A stretch of 64,000 nt of DNA from Halobacterium sp. DL1 (GTDB lineage Archaea; Halobacteriota; Halobacteria; Halobacteriales; Halobacteriaceae): assembly GCA_000230955.3 (NCBI GenBank), contig CP007060.1, positions 2,734,216 through 2,798,215 on the forward strand. The letters are read 5' to 3'. Below are positions 10,995 to 63,857 of the stretch, piece by piece (positions within the stretch are counted from its first letter, which is position 1; each line of letters begins with the position of its first letter). The position numbers and the translations under genes were made by a program. Under the pieces are notes generated by a model. It was not told the DNA's origin. It ran no database searches and was given only the letters and a program-made list of their open reading frames with translations.

Positions 10995-11735
10995 ATGCCC
11001 GGAACCGTGTACCTTGTCGGCAGCGGGCCCGGCGACCCGGAGCTCCTCACGGTGAAGGCGAAGCGGCTGCTCGACGATGCAGACGTCGTCCTCCACGACA
11101 AGCTTCCGGGCCCCGTGATCCTCGAGGCGATTCCCGAGGCGAAGCGCGAGGACGTCGGGAAGCGCGCTGGCGGCGAGCGCACCTCCCAGGCCGAGATCAA
11201 CGAGCGCATGGTCGAACTCGCCGAGGACGGCGACGACGTCGTGCGCCTGAAGGGCGGCGACCCGTTCGTCTTCGGGCGCGGTGGCGAGGAGATGGAGTAT
11301 CTCGCAGCGCACGGCATCCCATTCGAGGTAGTGCCTGGCGTCACGTCCGCAGTGGCCGCGCCGGCCGCAGCCGACATCCCAGTCACGCACCGCGACCACG
11401 CCTCCAGCGTCTCGTTCGTCACGGGCCACGAGGACCCGACGAAGCCGGAGTCCGCGGTAGACTGGCAGGCGCTCGCCGACACCGGCGGCACCATTGTCGT
11501 GCTGATGGGCGTCGGCAGACTCCCCGACTACACCCGGGAACTCCGGGACGCCGGGATGGACCCCGAGACGCCCGTCGCGCTCGTCGAGAAGGGAACTCGC
11601 CCCGGGCAGCAGGTCGCCACGGGGACGCTCGAAAGTATCGTCGAGGCCCGCGACGAGGCCGGCATCGAACCGCCCGCCGTGACCGTCGTCGGCGGCGTCG
11701 CCGGGCTCTGGGCCGAGGCCGAGGACGAGCGATGA
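10995..11735 (+). CDS. cobA: Uroporphyrinogen-III C-methyltransferase
   Basis: This 246-residue S-adenosylmethionine-dependent enzyme (also called SumT) methylates uroporphyrinogen III at C2 and C7 to precorrin-2, which leads to siroheme, cobamide and the archaeal heme route. Signature motifs are GSGPGDPELLTVKAKRLL at the N-terminus, LKGGDPFVFGRGGEE, and VPGVTSAVAAPAAADIPVTH. Length is normal. It sits between hemC and hemD and overlaps hemD by 4 bp (ATGA), so the three are surely cotranscribed and translationally coupled. Confidence 0.96.
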   Translation: MPGTVYLVGSGPGDPELLTVKAKRLLDDADVVLHDKLPGPVILEAIPEAKREDVGKRAGGERTSQAEINERMVELAEDGDDVVRLKGGDPFVFGRGGEEMEYLAAHGIPFEVVPGVTSAVAAPAAADIPVTHRDHASSVSFVTGHEDPTKPESAVDWQALADTGGTIVVLMGVGRLPDYTRELRDAGMDPETPVALVEKGTRPGQQVATGTLESIVEARDEAGIEPPAVTVVGGVAGLWAEAEDER

Positions 11736-12448
11736 ACGTCGCCGTCTTCCGCCCGGACGACGAGCGCCTCGCCGACGCCGTCGCCCTGCTCGAATCGCTG
11801 GACGCGACTCCCGTCCCGGACCCGATGCTCGCCGTCGAACCGACGGGCGCGGTCCCCCGGAACGACGCCGACTTCACGCTCCTCACGAGCAAGACCGGCG
11901 TCGAACTCGCCGCGAGCGAGGGGTGGGAACCGGGCGATACTGTGCTCTGCGCCATCGGCGAGGCCACTGCCGAGTCGTGCCGTGACGCCGGCTGGACGGT
12001 AGACCGAATCCCCGAGGAGTACACGAGTTCGGGGCTCGTCGCCGCACTCGCAAACGAGGTGGCCGACGCGCGCGTCGAAGTCGCCCGCTCGGACCACGGC
12101 TCGGACGAACTCACCGACGGACTGAACGACGCCGGTGCGTTCGTACACGAGACTGTGCTATACGAACTCGTCCGGCCCGCGGGTGCCGGCGAGTCCGCCG
12201 AACTCGCTGCGGCCGGCGACCTCGACGCCGCGCTGTTCTCGTCGTCGCTCACGGTCGAGCACTGGCTCGACGCCGCCCGCGAGCGCGGCATCGAGGCCGA
12301 CGCGCGAGCGGGACTGGACGACGCTGTGGTCGGCTGCATCGGCCCGCCGACCCGCGAGACGGCCGAGTCGCTCCGTATCGACGTGGACGTCGTGCCAGAG
12401 GACGCGGACTTCGAGCAGCTAGTCCGAGCGGCCTGCGACGCGGCCTGA
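11732..12448 (+). CDS. hemD: Uroporphyrinogen-III synthase
   Basis: This 238-residue protein closes hydroxymethylbilane to uroporphyrinogen III with inversion of ring D. HemD is poorly conserved, so the call rests on its two-lobed Rossmann-like pattern (NVAVFRPDDERLADAVALLE at the start; TLLTSKTGVELAA; AALFSSSLTVEHWLDAA; VVGCIGPPTRETAESL near the end), on the length, and on its place as last gene of hemC-sumT-hemD. The start overlaps the sumT stop by 4 bp. Confidence 0.93.
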   Translation: MNVAVFRPDDERLADAVALLESLDATPVPDPMLAVEPTGAVPRNDADFTLLTSKTGVELAASEGWEPGDTVLCAIGEATAESCRDAGWTVDRIPEEYTSSGLVAALANEVADARVEVARSDHGSDELTDGLNDAGAFVHETVLYELVRPAGAGESAELAAAGDLDAALFSSSLTVEHWLDAARERGIEADARAGLDDAVVGCIGPPTRETAESLRIDVDVVPEDADFEQLVRAACDAA

Positions 12449-21850: not shown

Positions 21851-22082
21851 CTGAACTGCTAAATACAGGTAGTACCGTTATCGGGACAGAATTCTATCTC
21901 TCTAAATATCGTCAGAATTCGCCGACTGAATACAGAGATGTCCTCAGTCACCAAAGCAGACTGGAACAAACCGAATTGGGTCATCACCAGCCCACAGCCG
22001 TCAGCTGACGCACGAAGACATCGACCATCTCACCACAATCTGCACAGTAACGCTATAGGAGTTCCCTCGCTGATAACGGGTA

Positions 22083-23969
22083 ATGGACGGTAGGAACTGG
22101 GGAAACTATGACATATTTGGGCGAAGATTCATTGTGGTCCTCGGCGGGGTTTTCCTCCTACTCGTAGTCAGCTTTCCATTCCTCCCCGTTGTTGACGATG
22201 CCTCCTCCGAACTCTGGCTCGTACTAAGTATCTTAGTTGGTATCCCGGGTCTCGTCCTGTTGTACGGTGGCTATCGGTTGCCCCACACAGACATCCGCTC
22301 TGAACTCTATCCTACGGTCGGCAACTGGTGTCTCCGCGGCATTGTAGTCGGTCTCGCGATCTTGCTGCCGATCTTTCTTGTCAGTGACGACCCGAATATC
22401 GTCGGAAATGGCCTCTTGCTCACAGGACTGGGCAGTCTCGCGGGCTTCGGTGCGGGGACGTACGACGCGCGGGCCAAAACACGACAGCTCGAACTCCAAG
22501 AAACAGTCGACCAATTGGAAACCTCGAACGAGCGGCTTGAACGACACCAGCAGTACACCGACGATATTCTCGATGCAATCGATGACGTGTTCTACGTTTT
22601 GGACGAAAATGGCGCTCTCCTCCGGTGGAACAAAAGCCTCTCGGAGGTCTCTGGCTACACGGACGAGGAAATATCAGCAATGACTGCTGCCGACTTCTTC
22701 ACGGATAGTGACCGTGATACAGCTCTGGCTGCGGTCCGCAACGGCCTCGAGAGTGACTCCGTAGATGTGGAACTCGAACTGCGCACCAAGGATGGCGATA
22801 CCATCCCCTTCGAGTTTGTTGGGTCTACGCTCGAGAACACGTCCGAAGACCCTATTCTGGCCGGCATCGGGCGCGACGTTACGAACCGGGTCGAGCGCGA
22901 ACAGGAGGTCCAGCGCGTCCGCGAGCGGATGGAATACGCCCTCAATGCAACCGATTCGGTCGTCTGGGACTGGAATGTCGAGGACAATCAGGCCTCGTTC
23001 TACCCCTCTGCGGAGTCGCTATACGGAACCACAGTCGAAACCTGGGAGGATTTTATCGGCGTGATCCATCCGGAGGATAGACAGAAGGCCCAGGAGGCTA
23101 TCGAGAACGCGCTGGAAACGGGCGAGCCGAAGCACGAAGAAATTCGGATCGTTCGAGACGGAGACGTGCGGTGGATCGAAGCCCCCGGGTACCCGGTCCA
23201 GGATGATAACGGTCCGACGTTGATGATTGGCGTGGCCCGAGACATCACCGAGCGGAAGACATACGAGCGCAAACTCGAGGAATCTAACGAGCGACTCGAA
23301 CAGTTCGCGTACGCTGCGTCCCACGACCTCCAGGAACCACTCCGGATGGTGTCGAGTTATCTGCAGTTGATCGAAGACCGATCCGACGAGGAACTGACCG
23401 AGGAGACCGAAGAGTTCCTCGAGTTCGCCGTGGACGGGGCCGACCGCATGCGTGACATGATCGATGGGTTACTAGCGTACTCAGGCGTGGAGACCCAGGG
23501 AGAGGCGTTCAAACCGGTCGACCTCAACAAAGTGATTGGAGAGGCCCGCGACGACCTCGAGATGCGTATAACGGAAAGTGATGCCGACGTGACCATCGAG
23601 GAACTCCCTCGTGTGGTGGGCGATGAACATCAGCTGCGTCAGGTGTTTCAGAACTTGTTGAGTAACGCGATCGAGTACAGTGGGAACGAGCCGCCACGGG
23701 TGAATATTTCCGCCACCCAGAACAGTTCGATGTGGGAGATATCGGTTCAGGACGAGGGGATAGGGATTGAGCCGGAAGAACACGACCGTATCTTCGAGGT
23801 ATTCCAGCGGCTTCAATCTCGGGACAATTACGGTGGCTCGGGCATAGGCTTAGCACTCTGCGAGCGAATCATCGAACGTCACGGCGGCGAAATCCGTGTC
23901 GAATCCGAACCGGGCGAGGGAGCGACGTTCTCATTTACTCTCCCAGCGGAGGATGAGCATGGCAGGTGA
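22083..23969 (+). CDS. Membrane-anchored PAS-PAS sensor histidine kinase
   Basis: A 628-residue protein. Residues 15-130 contain about four membrane helices (FIVVLGGVFLLLVVSFPFL and others), then a coiled coil (about 130-160), a first PAS (about 160-270; VFYVLDENGALLRWNKS), a second PAS/PAC (about 285-400; IMIGVARDITE-like end), HisKA with H-box His414 in FAYAASHDLQEPLRM, and HATPase_c (N-box FQNLLSNAIEYS, G1 QDEGIGIEPE, G2 SGIGLALCERII). The H-box type is that of phytochrome-like kinases that pair with Rcp1-like regulators, and such a regulator follows and overlaps it by 11 bp. The signal is unknown. Confidence 0.93.
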   Translation: MDGRNWGNYDIFGRRFIVVLGGVFLLLVVSFPFLPVVDDASSELWLVLSILVGIPGLVLLYGGYRLPHTDIRSELYPTVGNWCLRGIVVGLAILLPIFLVSDDPNIVGNGLLLTGLGSLAGFGAGTYDARAKTRQLELQETVDQLETSNERLERHQQYTDDILDAIDDVFYVLDENGALLRWNKSLSEVSGYTDEEISAMTAADFFTDSDRDTALAAVRNGLESDSVDVELELRTKDGDTIPFEFVGSTLENTSEDPILAGIGRDVTNRVEREQEVQRVRERMEYALNATDSVVWDWNVEDNQASFYPSAESLYGTTVETWEDFIGVIHPEDRQKAQEAIENALETGEPKHEEIRIVRDGDVRWIEAPGYPVQDDNGPTLMIGVARDITERKTYERKLEESNERLEQFAYAASHDLQEPLRMVSSYLQLIEDRSDEELTEETEEFLEFAVDGADRMRDMIDGLLAYSGVETQGEAFKPVDLNKVIGEARDDLEMRITESDADVTIEELPRVVGDEHQLRQVFQNLLSNAIEYSGNEPPRVNISATQNSSMWEISVQDEGIGIEPEEHDRIFEVFQRLQSRDNYGGSGIGLALCERIIERHGGEIRVESEPGEGATFSFTLPAEDEHGR

Positions 23970-24420
23970 GCAGGGAAGCGCCGAGCCGGCTGACATCCTC
24001 CTCGTCGAGGACAACCCTGGTGATATACGTCTCACGAAAGAGGCATTCAAGGACGCGCAGATAGCGAACACACTCCACGTTGTCGAAAACGGTGTCGACG
24101 CTCTCAATTTCCTTTTCCAACGAGACGACTACGCCGATGCACCGCGTCCCGACATCGTGCTATTAGACCTCAATCTCCCCCGGAAGAGTGGCCACGAGGT
24201 GCTTGAAGAACTGCACGGTGATTCGAACCGAAGGCGCATTCCGGTAGTTGTCCTCACGAGTTCGGACGCTGAAATGGACATCGTCAAGTCCTACGACCTC
24301 TGTGCGAGTGGGTACCTGACGAAGCCGGTTGATCCTAACGAGTTTATTGAGATGATACAGGATCTAGAGCGGTTTTGGCTCTCGATTATGCGGTTACCGG
24401 CTGACACAGATGCTGATTGA
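23959..24420 (+). CDS. Single-domain response regulator (Rcp1-like)
   Basis: A 153-residue receiver protein without an output domain. Acidic pocket ILLVEDNPGDIRL, phospho-acceptor Asp70 in DIVLLDLNLPRKSG, the Thr/Ser in VVLTSSDAEMD and the Lys in YLTKPVDPNEF are all present. The start overlaps the end of the kinase gene; ATG 23953 is an equally possible start two codons earlier. Partner of the kinase at 22083 by overlap and by subtype. The downstream output must be a protein-protein contact or another kinase. Confidence 0.92.
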   Translation: MAGEQGSAEPADILLVEDNPGDIRLTKEAFKDAQIANTLHVVENGVDALNFLFQRDDYADAPRPDIVLLDLNLPRKSGHEVLEELHGDSNRRRIPVVVLTSSDAEMDIVKSYDLCASGYLTKPVDPNEFIEMIQDLERFWLSIMRLPADTDAD

Positions 24421-24553
24421 AAAGCGGGATGTATACAGTGTATCGGCCCGGTTACCGCTGAAATCTGATACACGAAAGGCGAGCAGTGTGCAAGTCTGCT
24501 AACCGGTTGGTCCAACCAACAGGGGTTGGAATAAAGGCGCCGCGCGTGGCAAT

Positions 24554-27500
24554 CTACATGAAATCCCCAATAGTCGATGGCCGATTCTTGTCGTTCTCGA
24601 AGACGGACTCCAGTTTCCGGTCGAGGAGCGCGAGGCGCTGCTTCGTGTACTCCCGGCAGTCGTAGTCCTCCGCGACCTGGATAGCGGTGTCCATGTACTT
24701 GTTCACGGAGCCCTCGTGGACGGTGAGGTTGACGCGCCCGCCGCACTCCCGGCAGTCCCCGGTGAGTGGCATGCGGCGGTACTTCTCACCGCAGTCCAGG
24801 CAGCGCGTCTCCTGCCGGCTGAACGCACGGAGGTTGCCGATGAGGTCCGGGAGGAAGTGGTACTCGATGACGCGCTCGGCGACGTCCGTCTCGTCGACGG
24901 CGCGGAGCTTCCGCGCGAGTTCTAGCTGGGCGTCCATCTTGTCCATCATCGAACCGAGGGTCTTGTACGCCGACAGCTCCGGGCCGAGGTGGATGGTCGA
25001 CGTGTCGTGGGTGTGGCCGAACCCGGTGTACTCGTGGTCGGTGCCGAGCGTCGACTCCGCGATCTGGACGAGGTCCTCAACCTCCTCGGGGTCCGCGAGT
25101 TCGCGGGTCGCCTCGAAGAACTCCATGGGGTACTCCGTCGCGATGTCCATGTTGTGGGCCTCGTCGTCGATCTCGCTCGGGTCGATGCGCGAGGACATCA
25201 CCAACGGCGCGTCCATCTGCCCGCCGCGCTTGTCCGGCAGGAACGACTTCGAGAAGTTCAGCAGGCCGTCCAACAGGAGCATCACGCAGTCCTCGTCACC
25301 GTCGCACTGCTTTTGCGATGTGTCGTTTGCTATCAGCGAGTGGGTATCGGTGACGGTGAGACAGTACGTCTGGTCGACATCGGCCTCTACGATGGATACG
25401 TCCTCGACTTCATCGACGAAGTAATCGCCGCTGCCCCCATCGAAGACACGTCGGCTACTGGGTTCGATCTGCGCTACGTGGGCAGCCAGCCGTTCTCGCT
25501 TACGGGAGAGGTGGAGGTCGATGGTCTCAGCCAACCGGACTGCGTCCGACGAAGTGACGTGGATTACGTAGGACTTCGCCGACAACGCTTCGTCGTCAAT
25601 GTCGTAGAAGTCGGGGAACTTCTCGACGAGCGGGACAGGGTCATTCGTGCTTACTCGTGCCGCAATTCCGAGTCGCGTGAGCAACGCGAGCAGGTCCTCT
25701 TTCAGTTCACGGCTGACCGTGGTAGCAGCCACATCCAGAGTGTTCTTGTCGACGGTGCCATCGCCACTGAAATACCCCCCAAGGAATGCGGAAACGTGGT
25801 CGTCAGGAGCGTCGAAGATGCAGGGAGGGACGCGTTTGTCAGCCGCTCCTGCTCCGCAATCGAGGACGGTCTCGAAGAAAACGCGAGTGAGGCGACCCGA
25901 GACAGTCACCTTCACGTCGTTTTCGCGATACGCCTCAACGCCCAGTGTAGACGCGAACGTCTCGACGAAGAAGTCGCGGGCCTCTGCCTCGACACCGGAG
26001 ATGGTCGTCTGGTGAATCGTTCCCTTTGGGGTCTCTTGCTCTCTCGTGAACCCCTCTGCAGCGTAGTAGCCGAGGAGTGTAGCAAAGTCCTCATCTAGGG
26101 ACACGAAGCGGTCGACCTCGACAGTGTCACGCTTCATCCCGAGCGTCACGTCGTTCGGAATACGGGCGGCGACAGCTGCCGGCGATCCGAGGAGGTCGAC
26201 GAGGAGCGAAACCGGCAGGCTCTCCCGGTAGAGGTAGTTGCTCAACGCTTTCTTCGTTAACCCGAGGAATTCAGCGGTACTCTTCAGCGGGTAGAACTGG
26301 CCGTCCCAGTCGTCAGCAAGCACCTCCGAGAAGAGGTCGTACAGCACGTCCTTGTCAAGTCCCTTCACCATGAGTGACTCATTTGGGACCTCGTCGCTCT
26401 CGGCAAATTCTTGGAGTAAGTCGAATCGCGCGGGAGATCCAGGTACGTCTACGTGTGTCGGAGTGACGAGTGAGTTAGCGTCCGTGACGTCGCTGGCTCG
26501 CTTCGAGTGGAGATTGCCCTCGTCGAAGACGTGTACCTCGTGGTCTGGCGTCACCGTCAGTTCCCGCCCGCTCCGCGTCCTGATGCGGACCATGTGGTCC
26601 GGCGCCGGATGCTTCGAGACGGTCTCCACCGGCTTCCGCACCACCTCGCCATCCTCAGTTACGGATGGGACGATCACGTCACCGTCGAGTTCCTGGACGA
26701 GTGTGCCGAAGTCGTCCTCGTCGGCCGTTTCGGGGTCGAGTCGGTCCTCGACGAGCGTCTCGATGGTATCGTGGCGCCATTCTTCTGCCTCGTCCTCGTA
26801 CCAGACCTTCGTCTCCGGGTGGAAGCAGTTCCGCCGCTTCGACGCGTGGAAGTACGGGTGTGCGTAGCCGACGGCCGCGGAGGTGAAGCCGACGACGCGG
26901 CCGACGACGGCGGCGGAGGTGTGAGGCGCCATCCCGAAGACGAGTTCGCCGACGAGGTCGTCGCGCTCCTCGAACTCGTAGAAGGCGTCGAGGCCGTAAT
27001 ACTGGGTGAGGAGGTCGTCGACGAAGTCCGCGGTCTTCAGCATGTGTTCGGCGGCGCCGTCCGAGAGCACGACGTCCTGGACGCGGAGTTCGACGAGCTG
27101 GTCGTCGTGTTCGAGCGGGTCGCCGTGGATGTCCTCGTCGTAGCCCAGGTCCCGGAAGTGCTCGACGGTGACGTCGAGTTCGCTCGGGCGGACCGACGTC
27201 ACCGGGAGGTCGGTCATGTCGTAGCGGACGGTGCCGTCCTTGAACGCGGAGACGTCGTGTTTCGCGCGGAGGACGCCCTTCTCCATCGGTTCGGGGACCT
27301 TCTCGGAGGACATCAGCCCCTGGACGCCTTTCAGCACGTCGAAGGCGTTCTCGCGCTCGCCGACGTTCTTGAGCGCGCTGCGGTACTCGTCCTGGACGTC
27401 GACGGTCTGCGTCTCGACGTTGTCGACGTCGCGCTCGCAGCTGGGGCATTCGACGCGGCCGGACTCGTCGGGTTCGGCGACGGCGCCGCAGTCCCAGCAC

Positions 27501-29584: not shown

Positions 29585-30004
29585 CTACAGCCAGAGGTCG
29601 AGGTCGGTGGCCTCGTCGTATTCGCGCACCAGTTCCGTGTCGAACTCGCGGACGTACACCTCCCCGGCGAAGACGGTGGCGCGGTCGAGGTGACCGGCCA
29701 GCGCCTGTCCCGAGCGCCTCGATAATGTTGCGTGTGTGTGCGCGAAGGGGGCGTCGTCCAGTTCCGAGATGTTGCCGACGCAGGCGGCGACTTCCAGGGG
29801 CTCCTCGTAGCGCGCGGCCTTGTACTCGAAGTCGTCCTGGTCGTAGTACCAGAGTTCGGCGTCCTGGACCGCCCCCATGCCGGAGAACCAGGCGGCGTCG
29901 ATGCCCTCCTCGACGGCCAGCGACTCGAGTTCTTCCCGCCAGTCGGCGCCGTGGTCGAGTCGAGCGACGAACTCGCGGCCGCCGCTGACTTCGCGGACGT
30001 TCAT
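29585..30004 (-). CDS. PPC-domain (DUF296) protein
   Basis: A 139-residue protein made of one PPC (plant and prokaryote conserved) domain, also called DUF296: EFVARLDHGADWREELESLA, the glycine-rich WFSGMGAVQDAELWYYD, and the metal-type cluster HTHATLSRRSGQALAGHL. Bacterial and archaeal members form trimers with unclear function; plant homologues carry AT-hooks, which are missing here. It stops directly before the polC ATG, so it is probably cotranscribed with polC. The ATG at 30004 fits the family better than 30031. Confidence 0.88.
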   Translation of the reverse strand: MNVREVSGGREFVARLDHGADWREELESLAVEEGIDAAWFSGMGAVQDAELWYYDQDDFEYKAARYEEPLEVAACVGNISELDDAPFAHTHATLSRRSGQALAGHLDRATVFAGEVYVREFDTELVREYDEATDLDLWL

Positions 30005-30046
30005 GGAACCGTCAACAACCCGAGTGAGCAAAAGTCCTGCCGTCTC

Positions 30047-30130
30047 AGCGCCGCGCCGACAGCGGTGTGGCGCGAGACGCCGTCGTGTCTCTGTCGACAG
30101 CGCTCTAGCGCCACGCCGACAGCGGTGTCG
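30047..30130. repeat. Direct repeat: duplicated 3' end of the small gene 30105-30275
   Basis: Two copies of about 25 bp, 60 bp apart: CAGCGCCGCGCCGACAGC at 30047 and TAGCGCCACGCCGACAGC at 30107, both continuing GGTGT. In leftward reading both give ATPLSA(R/W)R and a stop, i.e. the end of the small DUF7556-like gene. Similarity continues weakly upstream, so this is a tandem partial duplication left behind the gene. Confidence 0.6.
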
Positions 30131-30275
30131 CCGCGTCAGCCGTCATGGATACCCAGGCCTCGTCCTGTGAGATGTCCGCGATGACGAGTCGGGAGTTCGG
30201 CCCGTCGTCGTCTAGCGAGGCCATCACGTCGGTCCCGGAGGCGTCAGACGTCGGCTGAGCGGCGTCGGTCGTCAT
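30105..30275 (-). CDS. Small haloarchaeal protein (DUF7556-like)
   Basis: A 56-residue protein, MTTDAAQPTSDASGTDVMAS at the start, then RLVIADISQDEAWVSM and the end TPLSAWR. This resembles a small haloarchaea-specific family I remember as DUF7556; number from memory. The LVIADIS..AW..M core is the conserved piece. No function is known. A degraded copy of its 3' end lies just downstream (30047-30070). Confidence 0.65.
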   Translation of the reverse strand: MTTDAAQPTSDASGTDVMASLDDDGPNSRLVIADISQDEAWVSMTADAATPLSAWR

Positions 30276-30455
30276 GACATATGGTACAACGCCACACCCA
30301 TTACTTAAACGCATCGCCTTGACAGGAGTTCGTGCTATGCGTTAACATATTTTGCCGGGAAGCGAATTGATACAGTACCGTGAGAACGTAATATACACCA
30401 TTGTTATCCGAAGAAGCGGTAAGTTTATCACTATAGATTAGTAACCTGTGGGTGG
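30276..30455. promoter_or_regulatory. Promoter region of the peptide ABC transporter operon
   Basis: A 180-bp AT-rich region. GTTTATCACTATAGATTAG at about 30424-30442 offers a TATA box about 25 nt before the ATG at 30456, as expected for a leaderless transcript. On the other strand, TTTAAGTAATGGGTG (reading left from 30308) can serve the small gene at 30105-30275. Confidence 0.5.
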
Positions 30456-32345
30456 ATGACAGATACTGACAACCTTTCGCGGCGCCGGTTCCTCCAAGGA
30501 ACGGGAGCCGCTGCGACCGCAGCCGCCCTGGCTGGCTGCACCGGTGGCGACGGCGACGGTGAGGACACGACCGAATCGACGACGGCCAACAACACGGACG
30601 ACACTGACGACGGAACGACGACCACGCAGTCGTACGACGCGAGCAAGACCGTCCGCTCGACCAACTCGACGATGGACACCCTTGACCCGGTCAAGGCAAC
30701 CGACACGGCGTCGGGGACGGTCATCCAGAACCTCTTCGACGCGCTGACCAACTACCCGAACGGTCAAACCAACGTCGAGAACCTCCTGGCCGAGTCGCTC
30801 GACATGAGCAACGACCAGACGACCCTGACGTTCTCGCTGAAACAGGGCGTCACGTACAGCAACGGCGACGAGGTCACCGCACAGGACGCGGTGTACTCTT
30901 TCGAGCGACTCGCCGCCTCCGACAACTCCCGGCGTGCGAGTTTCCTCCTCGACGACCTCGGTGTCGTCCACGAGACGGAGACCGAGACGCAGGACGGCGA
31001 GGAGACGGAAGTGTACGTCCCCGGCAGCATCGACGTCAACGCCACGGACGACTACACGCTCGAGATCAACATCAAGCAGCCGTTCTACGCGGCCACCGCG
31101 ATGCTCGCGTACTCCTCGTTCTCGCTGGTCCCGGAAGGGATCGTCGGCGACATCGAGGGCTACGACGGCCAGATGGACTACCAGGAGTTCGCGACCGCGA
31201 ACCCCGTCGGTGCGGGTCCGTACACGCTCGACACCTGGGAACAGAGCACGGAGGTCCGCATCGCCTCCCGTGACGACTACCACGGCGAGACGCCCAAGAA
31301 CGCGGGCAAGCACTACGCCATCTTCCAGGAGACGAACCCGGCGTACACGTACGCGACGGTCAACGTCAACGCCGACGGGCCGGTCGTGCCGACGAACAAG
31401 TACGACCCGAGCCTGAAGAACATCGAGGGCACGGACGACCGTGGCCGCCCGTACGGTACCTACGGTCCGATGTCCGAGAACGACCTCACGGCGGACTACT
31501 ACGAGGTCGCGTCCCTCGCAACCCGCTACGTCGCCTTCAACTGCAAGCAGGTCCCCAAGCCTGTCCGCGAGGCGATCGGCTACGCGCTGAACCAGCAGAT
31601 CATCAACGAGCAGATCATCACGGCGCCAACCAAGGAGGCGTACTTCTTCACGCCGCCGTCCATCTACCCGGGCGGACCGGCGAAGTACCAGGAGCGCCAG
31701 ACGAACTACAAGTACGGCTACCAGCAGTCCGACATGGAGTCGGCCACGCAGGTGCTCGAGGACGCCGGCTACACGCAGAGTAGCCCGTACACGCTCTCGT
31801 TCGACATGTCCAACGGCTACGCGACCCAGGCGGGTGGCGAGGCCATGTACTCGCTGCTCCGCGACCAGTTCTCCGACGCTGGTCTCGAGATCGAGCTGAA
31901 CACCGCCGACTGGAGTACGTTCCTCAACCGCGCACGGAGCGGCAACGTCGGCATGTTCTACCTCGGTTGGCTCGCCGACTACCCGGGTCTGGACAACTTC
32001 CTGAAGCTCCTGAACCCGCCGGCCACGATCACGGACAAGTCCGACAACGTCGGCTACGTGAACTGGACCGCGGACAACGGCGACTTCGCCGGTCAGGCCG
32101 AGGAAGGCTGGCAGATGATCACGGACAACTACGGCATCTCCGAGGAGGAGGCCCAGGCACGCGCAGAGGGTGGCTGGATGATCGAGGAGGCGTCGATGAA
32201 GGACGCCGTCATGCTGCCGATCCTCCACACCATCGACCAGTACTTCTCGTACCAGTGGACGGATTCCCCACGCGCAGGTGCGATGGGTGGCTCCCGGTCG
32301 AAGGACCACACGACCAAGATCGGCGACCGCGGCGACCACGAGTAG
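30456..32345 (+). CDS. Peptide ABC transporter substrate-binding lipoprotein
   Basis: A 629-residue extracellular solute-binding protein of family 5 (DppA/OppA). Tat signal LSRRRFLQGTGAAATAAALA with lipobox Cys near residue 28, a Thr/Asp-rich tether, then TMDTLDPVKATDTASGTVIQ, the family-5 signature region SDDVVYSFER-like (TAQDAVYSFERL) and YPGGPAKYQERQTNYKYGY. It binds di- or oligopeptides outside the cell and delivers them to the permeases DppB/DppC that follow. It is first in the operon, with 176 bp before dppB, so it may also be transcribed alone at a higher level. Confidence 0.92.
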   Translation: MTDTDNLSRRRFLQGTGAAATAAALAGCTGGDGDGEDTTESTTANNTDDTDDGTTTTQSYDASKTVRSTNSTMDTLDPVKATDTASGTVIQNLFDALTNYPNGQTNVENLLAESLDMSNDQTTLTFSLKQGVTYSNGDEVTAQDAVYSFERLAASDNSRRASFLLDDLGVVHETETETQDGEETEVYVPGSIDVNATDDYTLEINIKQPFYAATAMLAYSSFSLVPEGIVGDIEGYDGQMDYQEFATANPVGAGPYTLDTWEQSTEVRIASRDDYHGETPKNAGKHYAIFQETNPAYTYATVNVNADGPVVPTNKYDPSLKNIEGTDDRGRPYGTYGPMSENDLTADYYEVASLATRYVAFNCKQVPKPVREAIGYALNQQIINEQIITAPTKEAYFFTPPSIYPGGPAKYQERQTNYKYGYQQSDMESATQVLEDAGYTQSSPYTLSFDMSNGYATQAGGEAMYSLLRDQFSDAGLEIELNTADWSTFLNRARSGNVGMFYLGWLADYPGLDNFLKLLNPPATITDKSDNVGYVNWTADNGDFAGQAEEGWQMITDNYGISEEEAQARAEGGWMIEEASMKDAVMLPILHTIDQYFSYQWTDSPRAGAMGGSRSKDHTTKIGDRGDHE

Positions 32346-32521
32346 CGACACCAGCAGTCCGGTGAACCGCCCTGTATTTTTCGTAATACAGAACACGACC
32401 GTTTGCGTACCGCGAGTAGACCCTCTAGTCCCCGCGAAACGCAAGAATACGCGACACCGCAAGAGATAAACCGAAAGATTAGACAGATGCAAGCGAGTAA
32501 CACTATTCGAGGCAGACACCC

Positions 32522-33535
32522 ATGAGCCGGTGGAGCTACTTCGCGAAACGACTCGTACTGTCGATCCCAGTGATACTGTTCGGGACGACGATCACGTTCT
32601 TCGTCATCTACGCGGGGCCGATTGACCCCGCGTACGCCATCCTGGGACAGCAAGCAACGGCGGCGCGAGTCGAGGAGATCCACCGACAGCTCGGGATGAA
32701 CCAGCCGATGTGGGAGCAGTACTTCGACTTCGTCGTGAACATGTTCACGTTCAACCTCGGTAACTCGTGGGTCATCCGGCCCGACTACACGGCCTACGAG
32801 GTCATCATGTCCTACGCGCCCCGGACGGTTCTGATGGGCGCGTGGGCGGTCCTGCTGCCGCTGTTCATCGGTATCCCGCTCGGGTTCTACGCCGGGCTGA
32901 ACCCCAACACGCTGGGCGACTACACGGCATCGTTCAGCGGCATCATCTGGCGCGCGATGCCGAACTTCTGGCTCGCGGTCATCATGCTGATGGTGCTCTC
33001 CCAGTCCCAGGATTTCCTCTTCGGCTTCGACTGGGAGAACTTCATCGTGAGCACGGACGTCGCGGGCGCGCCGGAGATGAACAACCTCTGGAACTTCGAC
33101 AACTTCCTGCGCGCCTCGAAGATGGTGATACCGGCCGCACTCGTCCTCGGCTCCGCGTCGATGGGCAACGAGATGCGTATCGGCCGGACCGCGTTCCTGG
33201 AGTCGAAGAACTCCAACTACGTCGAGATGGCGCGCGCGAAGGGGCTCCCGGGCCGCACCATCGTCTGGAAGCACATCTTCCGTAACGCGCTCATCCCGCT
33301 GATTCCGGTCATCACCGCTGAGGCCGGCCTGCTCGTCGGCGGCGCCGTGCTCGTCGAGACGGTCTTCGGCATCAACGGCATCGGCTGGCTGTTCTTCACC
33401 GCGATGACGTCGGGAGACCTGCCCCTGGCAGGTGCGTTGATGTTCTTCTTCATCCTCCTGATTGTCGGCATCAACATCCTCCAGGACTTCCTCTACACCG
33501 TGGTCGACCCACGAGTCGGCTTCGAGGGTAACTGA
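32522..33535 (+). CDS. dppB: Peptide ABC transporter permease DppB
   Basis: A 337-residue inner membrane permease. N-terminal RLVLSIPVILFGTTITFFVI helix, extracellular loop, then the BPD-type permease core with about five helices and the EAA loop near VEMARAKGLPGRTIVWKHIF, where it docks to the ATPase. Ends VVDPRVGFEGN, as DppB proteins do. Two bases separate its stop from the dppC ATG. Confidence 0.95.
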   Translation: MSRWSYFAKRLVLSIPVILFGTTITFFVIYAGPIDPAYAILGQQATAARVEEIHRQLGMNQPMWEQYFDFVVNMFTFNLGNSWVIRPDYTAYEVIMSYAPRTVLMGAWAVLLPLFIGIPLGFYAGLNPNTLGDYTASFSGIIWRAMPNFWLAVIMLMVLSQSQDFLFGFDWENFIVSTDVAGAPEMNNLWNFDNFLRASKMVIPAALVLGSASMGNEMRIGRTAFLESKNSNYVEMARAKGLPGRTIVWKHIFRNALIPLIPVITAEAGLLVGGAVLVETVFGINGIGWLFFTAMTSGDLPLAGALMFFFILLIVGINILQDFLYTVVDPRVGFEGN

Positions 33536-59325: not shown

Positions 59326-59457
59326 AACGGCGTCGCTGTCGAACGAGCGTCGGAGAGAAGTAGTCCCGGGAAGCGGTGGGCCCCCGAGTTTCGAATCTTG
59401 GACAGCCGGGACACAGTCACCATCAGTATCATACCAACATGGATCGAGGTACCGCTC

Positions 59458-60405
59458 ATGCCTGAATTCACAAATCTCTCCCGCGAACCGGTTCGGGAGT
59501 ACTGGGCCGACGAAGCTCGTAAGTTCACCCCCTGGCTCGCGGATCAGATCGAATCTGAAGACCCCTCAGAGGTTGAGGATGTAATCCAACTCGACCTTTC
59601 CCTGCGCGGGACGGAGCAGAGCGTGGGTCGGTACAACCTCGATATCCTCGCCGAGGCAGAAGACGGGCGGACGGTCGTCATCGAGAACCAACTAGAGCCC
59701 TCGGACCACGACCATCTCGGGAAGTGCCTAGCCTACGCTTCGGGGGTTGACGCAGATATCGTCGTCTGGATCAGCCCCCGGTTCAACGACGAACACAGCG
59801 ACGCGTTCCAGTGGTTGAACGACCACACGCAGGAGGGGATCGACCTGTTCGCACTTCGGTTAGAGGTCTGGCGCATCGGCGACTCAGACCCGGCGGTCAG
59901 ATTCACCGCTGTCGAGGAACCCAGTGAGTGGAAGGCTCAAGCACAGCGATCGACCGAGTTAACGGATACAAAGAAACGCTACCTCGAATTTTGGACGGGT
60001 TTCCGTGATGTTATCCAGGAATCAGACACGCCCTTGAGCGCCCGGAAACCGTTCCCCGAAAACTGGTACAACAACCCCATCGGACGAAGCGGGATGAAAC
60101 TCCAGTTCAAAGTCAGTGTCCAGAACGGTATGGCCGCCGCGCAGTTCGTCATCGACGACAACCCCGACGCATTCGAGGCATTGCAGGATGAGGCTGCAGC
60201 CATCGACGCACAGATTCAGGGCGATGTCGAGTGGCACTCGGTCGAGGACTCCCCCGACCGGAGCAATCGCTCACGCGTGACGGTCACCCGTGACATCGAC
60301 CTAGAGGATGAGGAGAAGTGGCCCGAATACTACGATTGGCTCCTCCATCGAGGGACCGAACTCCACGACGTGTTCAGCGATAGAGTCCGAGATCTGGCGG
60401 TCTGA
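59458..60405 (+). CDS. DUF4268-type protein with PD-(D/E)XK-like nuclease domain
   Basis: A 315-residue protein. The N-terminal domain (about 1-125) has the restriction-endonuclease-like pattern: Asp62 in GRYNLDILAEAE and Glu76-x-Gln78 in TVVIENQLEPSDHDHLGK, with Gln where Lys is usual. The C-terminal part (about 160-310; KKRYLEFWTGFRDVIQESDT, YYDWLLHRGTELHDVF) fits DUF4268, a family seen in defence islands. GC content is lower than in the preceding operon. The ATG at 59458 is used. The nuclease activity is an inference from the D..ExQ pattern. Confidence 0.8.
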   Translation: MPEFTNLSREPVREYWADEARKFTPWLADQIESEDPSEVEDVIQLDLSLRGTEQSVGRYNLDILAEAEDGRTVVIENQLEPSDHDHLGKCLAYASGVDADIVVWISPRFNDEHSDAFQWLNDHTQEGIDLFALRLEVWRIGDSDPAVRFTAVEEPSEWKAQAQRSTELTDTKKRYLEFWTGFRDVIQESDTPLSARKPFPENWYNNPIGRSGMKLQFKVSVQNGMAAAQFVIDDNPDAFEALQDEAAAIDAQIQGDVEWHSVEDSPDRSNRSRVTVTRDIDLEDEEKWPEYYDWLLHRGTELHDVFSDRVRDLAV

Positions 60406-60421
60406 ACACCCAGAATCCGGT

Positions 60422-60889
60422 TCAAATATTGAACCGGTTCACCACACGCTCGGTGGGGCGGTCGTCGGCCACGCGCCAGAGCCCCTGCGGCCAGAACGAC
60501 TCCTCGTAGTCCAATATCTCGTTGATTGTCTCTGGCTTGGCAGCTATCGAATCGTCGTACTCCTTGACTGCATAGACATCCAGCGCGGGGCCTCCGCCCC
60601 AGAATTCGTCGCGGATGTATTCCGTGTGCGCCATCGGGCCGACACGCCCGGCCGCAGTGTATCGACTCTCGGAATTGCGGTAGACCAGCAGCGGATCGCC
60701 TCGCTCCATCCGTTCGAGGTTCCGGCGGTTTCGCTCCCACGAGCCCTGCTCCGGATCGGTCCGGACGCCCCAGATGCGTGCAGTCTCCGGGAATGAGTCT
60801 GGTCGCCCCTCCCACTCTGACAGAGTGATTGGCTCGGCCATCGTACGCTGGAAGGACCGCTCGTCGACCGGCACCAGCCAGAGGTTCAT
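60422..60889 (-). CDS. EVE/PUA-like domain protein
   Basis: A 155-residue protein. MNLWLVPVDERSFQRTM at the start, an alpha-helical WERNRRNLERMERGDPLLVY, then SRYTAAGRVGPMAHTEY and VYAVKEYDDSIAAKPETI. The order (beta-strand W/V-rich start, GDPLLVYR, A/G-x-G-x-V strand) is that of EVE/YTH-related PUA-like domains, which read modified bases and are common in type IV restriction. It is convergent with the DUF4268 gene (16 bp). The ATG at 60889 is used. Confidence 0.6.
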   Translation of the reverse strand: MNLWLVPVDERSFQRTMAEPITLSEWEGRPDSFPETARIWGVRTDPEQGSWERNRRNLERMERGDPLLVYRNSESRYTAAGRVGPMAHTEYIRDEFWGGGPALDVYAVKEYDDSIAAKPETINEILDYEESFWPQGLWRVADDRPTERVVNRFNI

Positions 60890-61034
60890 ACGGGGGAGAG
60901 ACACCACCGCGGCATAAGTGATTCTCCCCTGATGGTTCCGGGCAGACCGCTACAGTCGGTCGAGGCGACCCCCGATATTCTCATTCGCTGCATTTCCGAA
61001 GAGCCGTCCGCCGCCGAGTATAGCGCCAACTCGC

Positions 61035-62096
61035 TCACCCCTCACGAGAGCTGCCAGTCGTCTGTTCCTTTCGGAGAGTCGTGAGACTCTTGCGACCGAA
61101 CGCTAAGTGCGTCCAATACCCGAATGCGTCGTCAAAATGCGGATTATCCGTGGTTCGAATGTTTTGAAGGATCGCTCTGGTCAAGCCAGTGAACGAGTAC
61201 TCTTCATCGTTGTGGCACCAGCGAACATTGTTCCGTTGGCCAGTCTTCCCAGTCACGACAGCTTGCCAGAAGCCATCTTCAGGATTCCACTGTTCTTCAA
61301 GTCCGTCGGGCATCCAGTCTTTGTCGAGCAAATCCTCATTGAACAGTAGCTCGTCCCCCTCTCGGAGGACTCCACGGTCAATTAGAACACTAAACGTGGA
61401 CCGTCGCCGATTGCTTTGCTGCCTTTCGTCCTTCTCTCGCCGCTTGGTCATGTACTCCTCCGCCTCAGGGACGGGGATGACACGCTGCCCTTGAATCAGG
61501 TACTCGCCATCGTGCTCGTAGGCGCTGAGGCGGATACACGAGATATCGATTCCGTACTCCTGCTGTAGCCAGAGCACTGGAGAAGTGATTTCCGTGCCGA
61601 AGTCTCCGGCGGCAAGCATCACACGAGGACGGTCGTCAAGTTCGAAGTCTGCGAACCCCCCCTCATCGATTGTTGCCGCCTCATCAGTCTCGAGGAATTC
61701 CGCGAACCGTTCGCCTACTTCCTCCGGTGACAGGTCGTCCTCGTTCCGCCGGTCGTGGAATTTTCGATACAGTTCCTGGATGTCCTCGGCAGTCAGTGTC
61801 GAACAGAAACCCGCGTATTTCAGCCCCTGAAGGTCAGTAGTTTTGTCGGCGCGATCGCGTTTCAGTTCAATGACCACCAGTTTCCCCACGCGGTCGAGTG
61901 CAAGTACGTCGAGCCGGTCGAGAGTATCTTCGAAGCCCGCGTACTCAGAGGTGATCACTAGGAGCTCTTCTCCTAGAATCTGGGGTTGCTCAATCACCCA
62001 CTCTTGGAGATCGTCCCGTTCTAGTAACCCGAGTTCGGTGAGCTGGCGGGTCGGGATAGAGTCTACCGCCCCATCGCCATCGATGCTGAACAGCAT
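61035..62096 (-). CDS. NucS-like PD-(D/E)XK nuclease with RAMA-like C-terminus
   Basis: A 353-residue protein. N-terminal domain (about 25-105): LQEWVIEQPQILGEELLVI, then Asp63 in DRLDVLALDRVGKLVVIELKR with Glu77-Leu-Lys79, and DLQGLKYAGFCSTL; this is the EndoMS/NucS or archaeal RecB-like nuclease core, apparently intact. The C-terminal region (about 245-345; FSVLIDRGVLREGDELLF, YSFTGLTRAILQNI, FGYWTHLAFGRKSL) looks like a RAMA domain that recognises modified DNA, judged from pattern only. ATG 62096 is preferred to GTG 62111. Confidence 0.78.
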   Translation of the reverse strand: MLFSIDGDGAVDSIPTRQLTELGLLERDDLQEWVIEQPQILGEELLVITSEYAGFEDTLDRLDVLALDRVGKLVVIELKRDRADKTTDLQGLKYAGFCSTLTAEDIQELYRKFHDRRNEDDLSPEEVGERFAEFLETDEAATIDEGGFADFELDDRPRVMLAAGDFGTEITSPVLWLQQEYGIDISCIRLSAYEHDGEYLIQGQRVIPVPEAEEYMTKRREKDERQQSNRRRSTFSVLIDRGVLREGDELLFNEDLLDKDWMPDGLEEQWNPEDGFWQAVVTGKTGQRNNVRWCHNDEEYSFTGLTRAILQNIRTTDNPHFDDAFGYWTHLAFGRKSLTTLRKEQTTGSSREG

Positions 62097-62272
62097 GTCT
62101 CTACTGGACACAGGCCATCCTGTTACCTGTTACCGTGGACGCTGTCCAGCGCATCAGTCGAGGGGCGAACGTGGTCGACGACCAACCGTTCTGAAGCTCG
62201 GTTCCCTCTCGGTTGAGCAAGTTGCCGGAATCGTAACCAACGCACTGCGTTAGTGTTTACTTTTTGTCACGT

Positions 62273-63532
62273 ATGGCAAGCGTCAGCGACATCCACAATT
62301 TCGGCGACCAGTTTACCCAGCAGCTCGAGAAGCTCGACGAGGCCGATATCGGCGACCGCGACCGGAAGGCCATCAAGCAGTTCATCCGCTACCAGGACGC
62401 CCAGCGCGGCCTCGCCGCCAGCACCAACGTCAACAACTGCTCGGACCTCCGTCTCAGCGCCACGCGCGCCGACACGCCCCTGATGGACATGACACGCGAG
62501 GACGTCGACGCGCTCCTCTTCGAGTACAAGCACGACCACGAGATGGCGCCGGGCACGCTCCGGAACTACCGCAAGGCGCTGCGGAAGTTCTTCCGCTACC
62601 ACGACCGGGAGTGGGCCGAGGACATCGAGATCGGCGCCATCCCCGACCGCGAGGTCGACGCCGAGAAGACGCTCACCGAGGACGAAATCAGCGCGCTCCG
62701 TGAGGCGGTCGACCACCCGCGCAACAAGGCCCTCCTCGAGATGCTGCTCGACACCGGCCTCCGCATCAGCGCCATCGGCACGCTCCGCGTGAAGGACGTC
62801 GACCTCAACGGCCGGACCGGGTCGGTCACCCTCAACCAGGACGCCGTCGGCCGGAAGGGCGCCAGCGGGAAGCGGCCACTCACCTACAGCAAGCCCTACG
62901 TCGCCAACTGGCTCGACGTCCACCCCCGGAGCGGCGACCCCGGGGCGCCGCTGTTCCACCGGCTCACCAAGCCCAACGGCGGCTGGGGCGACGACGACGG
63001 CGCGCTCCACTACTACTCCCTCCAGAAGGTCCTCAAGCAGACCGCCGAGGACGCCGGCGTCCCGCGCGACAAGGTCAACCCCCACAACTTCCGGAAGACC
63101 GCCATCAGCCAGTGGATCCGCCAGGGGTTCAGCGAGCAGGAGATCAAGCACCGCGCGACCTGGGTGAAGGACAGCCGGCAGTTCGAGACCTACTCCCAGG
63201 TGACCGACGAGGAGATGAACCAGCAGATTCTCGAGCAGTACGGCCTCGCCGACGAGGAGACCGAGCGGACCAGGCCCAGCCTCGAGGACTGCCCGCAGTG
63301 CCAGACCACGCTCCGGGGCGACCCGCGGTTCTGCCCCGGCTGCGGGCTCGCCCTCAGCCAGCGCGCCGCACAGGACCTCGAGCAGGCCAAGGAGGACGTC
63401 TTCGAGGACGTGGCCGCCGCCACCGACGAGGACGAGGTCGCGATGCTCCGGGACCTGCGGGAGCTCGTCGAGGACCACCCCGGCGCCATGGACGCGGTCC
63501 TCCAGCGAGCGGCGGCGGAGACCGATGACTGA
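62273..63532 (+). CDS. Tyrosine recombinase/integrase with C-terminal zinc ribbon
   Basis: A 419-residue protein. SAM-like core-binding domain (about 10-115; MAPGTLRNYRKALRKFFRYH), catalytic domain with Arg164 (DTGLRISAIGTL), Lys in the beta hairpin, His271-x-x-Arg274 (PHNFRKTAISQWI), HRATW with the second His/Trp position and nucleophile Tyr307 (FETYSQV). A zinc ribbon follows (CPQCQTTLRGDPRFCPGCG, about 340-360) and an acidic helical tail. All catalytic residues are present. Ser codons are mostly AGC, unlike neighbours. It overlaps the next gene by 8 bp. It may mobilise the adjacent island or act in chromosome/plasmid resolution. Confidence 0.93.
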   Translation: MASVSDIHNFGDQFTQQLEKLDEADIGDRDRKAIKQFIRYQDAQRGLAASTNVNNCSDLRLSATRADTPLMDMTREDVDALLFEYKHDHEMAPGTLRNYRKALRKFFRYHDREWAEDIEIGAIPDREVDAEKTLTEDEISALREAVDHPRNKALLEMLLDTGLRISAIGTLRVKDVDLNGRTGSVTLNQDAVGRKGASGKRPLTYSKPYVANWLDVHPRSGDPGAPLFHRLTKPNGGWGDDDGALHYYSLQKVLKQTAEDAGVPRDKVNPHNFRKTAISQWIRQGFSEQEIKHRATWVKDSRQFETYSQVTDEEMNQQILEQYGLADEETERTRPSLEDCPQCQTTLRGDPRFCPGCGLALSQRAAQDLEQAKEDVFEDVAAATDEDEVAMLRDLRELVEDHPGAMDAVLQRAAAETDD

Positions 63533-63857
63533 GTCAGACGTCGGCATCGACACGGCCGACCTGCGGCGGCGGGTCCCCGACGGTTGGCGGGTCGAGGGCG
63601 GCGGCGCTGGCGTGACCGGGTACGCCGACGAGGACGAGACGGGGAGGCTCGTGCGCCCGGACGGGGTCCCGGCCTGCTTCGCCATCCACCCCGAAGGCAG
63701 CCTCTGGGGGGCGGCGTGGAAGCAGCCCCACGAGCTGGGCGACGACCTCCGCGCGGTGTCCGACCACGTCACGGGGACCAGAGAGCGGTGCATCGCGTGG
63801 GTCATCGAGCGGGTCCGCAACGCCGAAGGGAGTGATCACGAGGAGTTACTGGAGTAG
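63525..63857 (+). CDS. Small protein coupled to the integrase
   Basis: A 110-residue acidic protein: TADLRRRVPDGWRVEGGGAG, RPDGVPACFAIHPEGSLWGA and a helical end RERCIAWVIERVRNAEGSDH. It starts 8 bp inside the integrase gene in another frame, so its translation is coupled. I recognise no family. It might be an accessory (excisionase-like or regulatory) protein of the recombinase, from context only. No gene is seen in the remaining 143 bases. Confidence 0.7.
   Translation: MTESDVGIDTADLRRRVPDGWRVEGGGAGVTGYADEDETGRLVRPDGVPACFAIHPEGSLWGAAWKQPHELGDDLRAVSDHVTGTRERCIAWVIERVRNAEGSDHEELLE

Follow-up and report, generated by a model that had tools for sequence, protein, structure and literature searches.

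Do three neighbouring genes predicted to read or cut modified DNA form one defence system, or are they separate genes gathered on the same mobile element? This question is raised by genes A, B and C, which lie beside a tyrosine recombinase in the haloarchaeon Halobacterium sp. DL1. The window analysed here, a stretch of 64,000 nucleotides of contig CP007060.1 (assembly GCA_000230955.3, positions 2,734,216 to 2,798,215), contains them between positions 59458 and 62096, and an earlier sequence-only reading had combined them into a single candidate three-gene module for type IV-like restriction or DNA damage. Our analysis leads to a different answer: A, B and C are probably separate accessory restriction genes on an integrative element, with C most likely encoding a single-protein, modification-dependent (Type IV-like) endonuclease. 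The genes and their strands, which had been placed correctly from the letters (A on the + strand, B and C on the − strand), are as follows.

Gene A: 59458..60405, + strand, 315 residues, likely start 59458; matches DUF4268 and PDC-S11 profiles; N-terminal half PD-(D/E)XK-like with D62..E76-x-Q78, C-terminal half DUF4268
Gene B: 60422..60889, − strand, 155 residues, likely start 60889 (possible alternative GTG start at 60907); lone EVE/YTH-like protein (PUA superfamily)
Gene C: 61035..62096, − strand, 353 residues, likely start 62096 (possible alternative GTG start at 62111); EndoMS/NucS-like nuclease at residues 21–194 and RAMA fold at residues 231–346

Genes A, B and C are not a conserved module

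To survey co-occurrence, we searched 293 haloarchaeal genomes of the order and found, counting the host genome, 19, 24 and 11 loci with close relatives of C, A and B, respectively. The distance between A and C is at most 5 kb in 3 of the 293 genomes, compared with about 0.006 expected from random placement, an expectation that, like the others given below, ignores the general clustering of defence genes. The pair is thus found in the host and two other genomes, in differing arrangements: convergent with B in between here, convergent and 21 bp apart in genome G142, and in tandem in genome G077. At close identity, B is near A or C only in the host genome; at weaker identity, A-like and B-like genes share islands in G152 and G243. 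Since B adjoins A or C only here, and the A–C pair occurs in only three genomes, the trio is not a conserved module, and the proposed three-gene system did not survive the neighbourhood survey that had been suggested for it. That A, B and C nevertheless act together as one system is extremely unlikely: the genes stand side by side here and A and C are also adjacent in G142 and G077, but the other A or C loci lack B at close identity, A and C are mostly apart, the strands differ within the trio, and the A–C pairs vary in order and orientation.

Gene C combines an EndoMS-like nuclease with a RAMA-like end

The protein encoded by gene C scores 25.4 bits against Pfam NucS_C (cut-off 24), and residues D63, E77, K79 and Q90 are invariant across 64 aligned archaeal and bacterial sequences, in agreement with the intact D..ExK site of a NucS-like nuclease that had been read from the sequence. 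In a structure predicted from a 37-sequence alignment (predicted local distance difference test score, pLDDT, 87.8), residues 21–194 match the EndoMS/NucS fold (5gke, Z 13.0, 23% identity; 2vld, Z 12.5). The best solved match for residues 231–346 of the same predicted model is CcrM (6pbd, residues 271–354, Z 8.4, 2.6 Å over 82 residues), a region that corresponds to the RAMA domain of CcrM (PMC9963953); weaker matches ranked below 6pbd concern the nuclease part. Based on this model, we class the end of C as RAMA-like.

While C shares its catalytic fold and D..ExK site with the mismatch endonuclease EndoMS/NucS, it differs in having a RAMA end added, in being a variable gene beside restriction systems, and in lacking the NucS N-terminal domain: the matches start at EndoMS residue 127, and only ~20 residues precede the catalytic domain of C. 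Also, it fails the NCBIfam NucS equivalog, with 34 bits against a cut-off of 216. Compared with the RAMA domains of CcrM and MPND, the end of C is alike in fold; it differs in scoring below the Pfam cut-off, in its fusion to a nuclease, and in that reading of modified bases is only putative in C.

The RAMA segment of C is 35–41% identical to the C-terminal end of five haloarchaeal McrB-type proteins. Two of these were scanned; both contain an AAA domain, and one also contains MrcB_N and a DpnI_C winged helix, a domain that serves as the N6-methyladenine (6mA) sensor in DpnI (PMC11037411). One McrB-type protein (L146:9024-12434), which adjoins McrC, has the order DpnI_C winged helix, MrcB_N, AAA and C-like RAMA segment, and thus carries two possible 6mA readers in one chain.

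The gene C family carries varied ends

The N-terminal part of C (residues 15–237) matches the nuclease half of the NucS-like plus DUF4268 models of PDC-S11, a candidate defence family in PADLOC, with E=7.6e-69; C has a RAMA fold where these models have DUF4268. Among 64 members of the C family, 11 carry an O6-methylguanine methyltransferase (MGMT) DNA-binding domain and 5 a DUF4268 end, the remainder being RAMA-like or unassigned, and the RAMA profile reaches E<0.01 in 3 of the 64. The alternative ends are RAMA-type, RAMA plus an MGMT-type DNA-binding domain, or DUF4268. Streptomyces relatives (e.g. L200:6992-8389) are RAMA-type nucleases with the extra MGMT-type domain, PF01035, whose presence suggests that guanine is recognised when it is alkylated or changed in another way.

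GmrSD Type IV enzymes use DUF4268 and MGMT-type extra domains (PMC4619093). They have these domains in common with the C family and differ from it in their core, a DUF262/DUF1524 nuclease and NTPase. Because relatives of C vary their ends, and because GmrSD enzymes share DUF4268 and MGMT-type domains with them, the family suggests one cutter with varied ends, in which the ends would select DNA and the nuclease would cut it. By the same comparison, DUF4268, a domain of unknown function, is suggested to be a DNA reader, since one nuclease bears RAMA, an MGMT-type domain or DUF4268 as its end.

Fusions of RAMA to Mrr-type and GIY-YIG nucleases have been mentioned as uncharacterised proteins, and a 2024 paper pointed to RAMA fusions, not yet characterised, as candidates for restriction enzymes that read 6mA (PMC11037411). 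In the non-subscription literature searched, the combination of an EndoMS-like nuclease with RAMA seen in C is not described, and no paper treats NucS, restriction and RAMA together. C represents a widespread and apparently undescribed nuclease family in which DNA is probably chosen by means of an exchangeable reader domain. Relatives of C were not found on the viral contigs searched; the nuclease half is matched by a single phage record that lacks annotation.

Gene A is a PDC-S11 protein and gene B is classed as EVE/YTH-like

Gene A matches Pfam DUF4268 (E=4.5e-26) and, over its full length including DUF4268, the PDC-S11 family of PADLOC (PDLC04911, residues 2–311, E=2.3e-102). D62 and E76-N77-Q78 are invariant in an alignment of 19 sequences, showing that the ExQ motif, which had been noticed together with DUF4268 from the sequence alone, is a conserved state rather than a sign of decay. 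The profile of A found no match among solved structures, and when the N-terminal halves of A and C were compared as profiles, the probability was only 15% (E 0.0017); we therefore claim common descent of the two no further than the PD-(D/E)XK superfamily. Relatives of A occur on 15 viral-classed contigs (L259–L273), so genes of this type are carried along by viruses or proviruses as well.

Gene B is classed as EVE/YTH-like by its sequence relationships. Several relatives match EVE below the cut-off (E 0.0021–0.05), and the family profile has only two matches among solved structures, both YTH and both weak (6p0f, E=0.054; 5eip, E=1), which is in line with the EVE/PUA-like assignment made at the outset. 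A segment homologous to B is also part of HNH and McrB-type proteins, and the host genome carries a second copy of B, 80% identical. Lone EVE proteins adjoining archaeal restriction systems, including SNF2-PLD helicase loci, were recorded in a 2020 census of EVE proteins (PMC7641849). B resembles them in standing alone beside restriction systems; it differs in its place between two nuclease-type genes and matches the EVE profile weakly. It is plausible that C and B read modified DNA.

The sequence-only reading had regarded the locus as its best candidate for an undescribed system. For A, which belongs with PDC-S11, and for lone EVE proteins (PMC7641849) this does not hold; it does hold, as far as our search extends, for the nuclease–RAMA architecture of C.

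Each gene recurs beside restriction systems

The defence context proposed for the genes is supported: each of A, B and C separately adjoins restriction systems, which are McrBC, Type I restriction-modification (RM) systems, or loci that pair an Eco57I-type methylase with a PLD-SNF2 helicase. C follows an Eco57I-type methylase at 24–39 bp on the same strand, with a PLD-SNF2 helicase nearby, in 4 of its 19 loci (about 0.03 expected), while A is beside or near such a methylase in 4 of its 24 loci, in other genomes than the four of C (about 0.03 expected). The methylase family itself is present in 73 of the 293 genomes. Its recurrent RM-like locus (L107, L104, L105, L106, L110, L127) comprises a methylase of ~1200 residues and a helicase of ~1265 residues, with A or C as an alternative extra gene.

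Both C and A are beside a McrB-type gene in G077, and in G230 McrC lies 3 kb from C. A is near Type I RM genes in six other genomes (G142, G236, G038, G005, G025 and G065). In the first three of these, HsdM and HsdR are 87–93% identical to those encoded at our locus, described below, compared with only 52–55% for A, implying that the pieces were assembled independently. In G171, the gene immediately downstream of B encodes a DpnI_C-McrB protein; B has a PDDEXK_4 gene as its neighbour in G291 and a NotI-like enzyme with a methylase in G261; a relative in G152 is near McrBC-type, DUF499 and A-like genes.

The genes lie on an integrative element in tRNA-Gln

Genes A to E form the left arm of an integrative element of ~19.3 kb in tRNA-Gln(CTG). 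This element extends past the window, where it includes replication-type genes, a Type I RM system and a nuclease-like gene pair; its remaining features are listed below.

attL core: window 59361..59373, no strand assigned; TAGTCCCGGGAAG, left end of the element
Gene D: 62273..63532, + strand, likely start 62273; tyrosine recombinase (integrase) with a C-terminal zinc ribbon
Gene E: 63525..63857, + strand, 110 residues, likely start 63525; orphan, sharing 8 bp with the end of D
Past the window, in order: a 769-residue gene, Prim-Pol, YgjP, HsdR, HsdS, HsdM, a 186/315-residue gene pair and tRNA-Gln(CTG)
Type I RM genes and 186/315-residue pair: C1:2804455-2812468 (L258), outside the window, at the right end of the element

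Gene D matches Phage_integrase (E=1e-16), with a weak zinc-ribbon match; profile scans found no family for gene E. The 13-bp core at the left end recurs without mismatch at the 3′ end of the tRNA-Gln(CTG) gene (genome positions 2812905–2812917), 19,329 bp away, and no further copy with up to two mismatches is present in the 40.9 kb searched. The two copies emerged only on comparing the two edges of the element; ARAGORN found no tRNA within the window, and a repeat search of 12.6 kb around the genes returned only weak, chance-like repeats. Genome G049, of the same genus, has an empty site, in which the left flank TCGGAGAGAAG and the core, identical at 24/24 nt, run into an intact tRNA-Gln, LUD and PurO. 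An ABC transporter permease neighbouring the element is also absent from G049, but its position is beyond the core repeat. A partial second tRNA-Gln end (L279, about 11560–11740), close to and upstream of the intact tRNA in G049, suggests that an element had once integrated here and was later lost.

The closest relative of C, at 68% identity, is found in Haloferax marinum, where a tRNA-Gln end is repeated over 106 nt at a distance of about 0.1 kb from it. At this locus (L151:4651-6894), the repeat is 2 kb from tRNA-Gln(TTG), with the first ~119 residues of an integrase in between; this N-terminal fragment is of the same family as D, and the locus appears to be a decayed or split-integrase element beside a C gene. 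No tRNA was found in the stretches examined around other relatives of D (L252–L256), and therefore targeting of tRNA-Gln rests on the host genome and Haloferax marinum. With 13-bp cores at both ends, an empty site in G049 and the parallel in Haloferax marinum, the idea that the integrase had brought the genes in is well supported, for an element larger than the window.

The element resembles known tRNA-integrated tyrosine-recombinase elements in having an att core equal to the tRNA 3′ end, an integrase inside and an empty site, and nothing about it is unusual except its load of restriction genes. G+C content is 0.56–0.65 across A to C (0.56–0.64 over 59–62 kb) compared with about 0.70 in the flanks, consistent with the lower-GC stretch noted previously. 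Other stretches of low G+C (0.56–0.64), at window positions 22000–27000 and 30000–33000, may be further acquired segments. The 315-residue protein of the gene pair has a PD-(D/E)XK-like motif, as judged by eye, and relatives of the pair have B in their neighbourhood in G171, and A and C in G142.

Proposed modification-dependent cleavage and its alternatives

In the explanation that we consider probable, the RAMA end of C would grip DNA and select it by its modification, and the EndoMS-like domain would cut both strands. The mark selected is probably methylated adenine within a particular sequence context, or a bulkier modification found in viruses. A would be a second stand-alone nuclease, of PDC-S11 type, with its DUF4268 end in the reader's place, and B a lone modified-base reader that may cooperate with a nuclease in trans. 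The evidence for adenine methylation (the RAMA fold, the DpnI_C companions and the YTH-like character of B) is circumstantial.

Several observations weigh against this explanation. The end of C scores 14.5 bits against Pfam RAMA, below the cut-off of 35.2, but the predicted model fits the RAMA domain of CcrM, so the RAMA-like call made from the sequence is retained. B itself has no Pfam match and does not reach the EVE gathering score, and its structure prediction from the single sequence failed (pLDDT 36). Literature on RAMA reading modified adenine is divided (PMC11037411, PMC9963953): in CcrM and MPND it is the DNA backbone that the RAMA domain contacts, and one study reports no preference for 6mA (PMC9963953). 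Finally, the element encodes an HsdM of the N6-adenine methylase group, and a C dependent on plain 6mA would therefore endanger the host; context dependence or another modification would thus be needed.

Alternatively, C could be the partner of a methylase, with RAMA sensing the methylase's own mark and restraining cleavage, so that unmodified foreign DNA is cut in an RM rather than a Type IV mode. The position of C directly after an Eco57I-type methylase in four genomes, the coupling of RAMA to an adenine methylase in CcrM (PMC9963953) and the presence of HsdM on this element agree with such a role, which we still regard as unlikely, given that the Eco57I-type methylase is missing from 14 of the 18 other C loci and no relative of it was found in the host genome. 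A function in DNA repair, in which C would act on mismatches or damaged bases as a NucS-type enzyme and would recognise the damage through RAMA or the MGMT-type domain, would suit the closest fold of C, EndoMS/NucS, and the MGMT DNA-binding domain in 11 of 64 family members, including those of Streptomyces. It is very unlikely, as C lacks the NucS N-terminal domain, two other open frames of the host genome (333 and 281 codons) match NucS_C better, and a repair gene would not be expected to be spread as patchily as C (a close relative in 19 of 293 genomes) or to occur next to restriction systems and on mobile elements.

For B, the question is whether it belongs instead to the element's Type I RM system, as an antitoxin-like or regulatory protein unrelated to A or C. 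Such a role has been suggested for lone EVE proteins located close to Type I RM systems in archaea (PMC7641849), and a Type I RM system is present on the same element; the hsd genes, however, are about 9 kb from B, and several close relatives of B are beside McrBC, PD-(D/E)XK-like genes, or a NotI-like enzyme and methylase, making this role improbable.

Returning to C as a modification-dependent endonuclease, we tentatively propose, as a possibility somewhat short of probable, that its family constitutes unrecognised, widespread single-protein Type IV restriction enzymes of archaea and many bacterial phyla, built from an EndoMS-like cutter and an exchangeable, modification-choosing end. The element illustrates how restriction genes are gathered and move jointly with a Type I RM system. 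As a test case, the C family is small and needs only one gene; cultured haloarchaea contain close relatives, and many bacterial phyla more distant ones. If our proposal is true, the family would supply the first RAMA-guided restriction enzyme.

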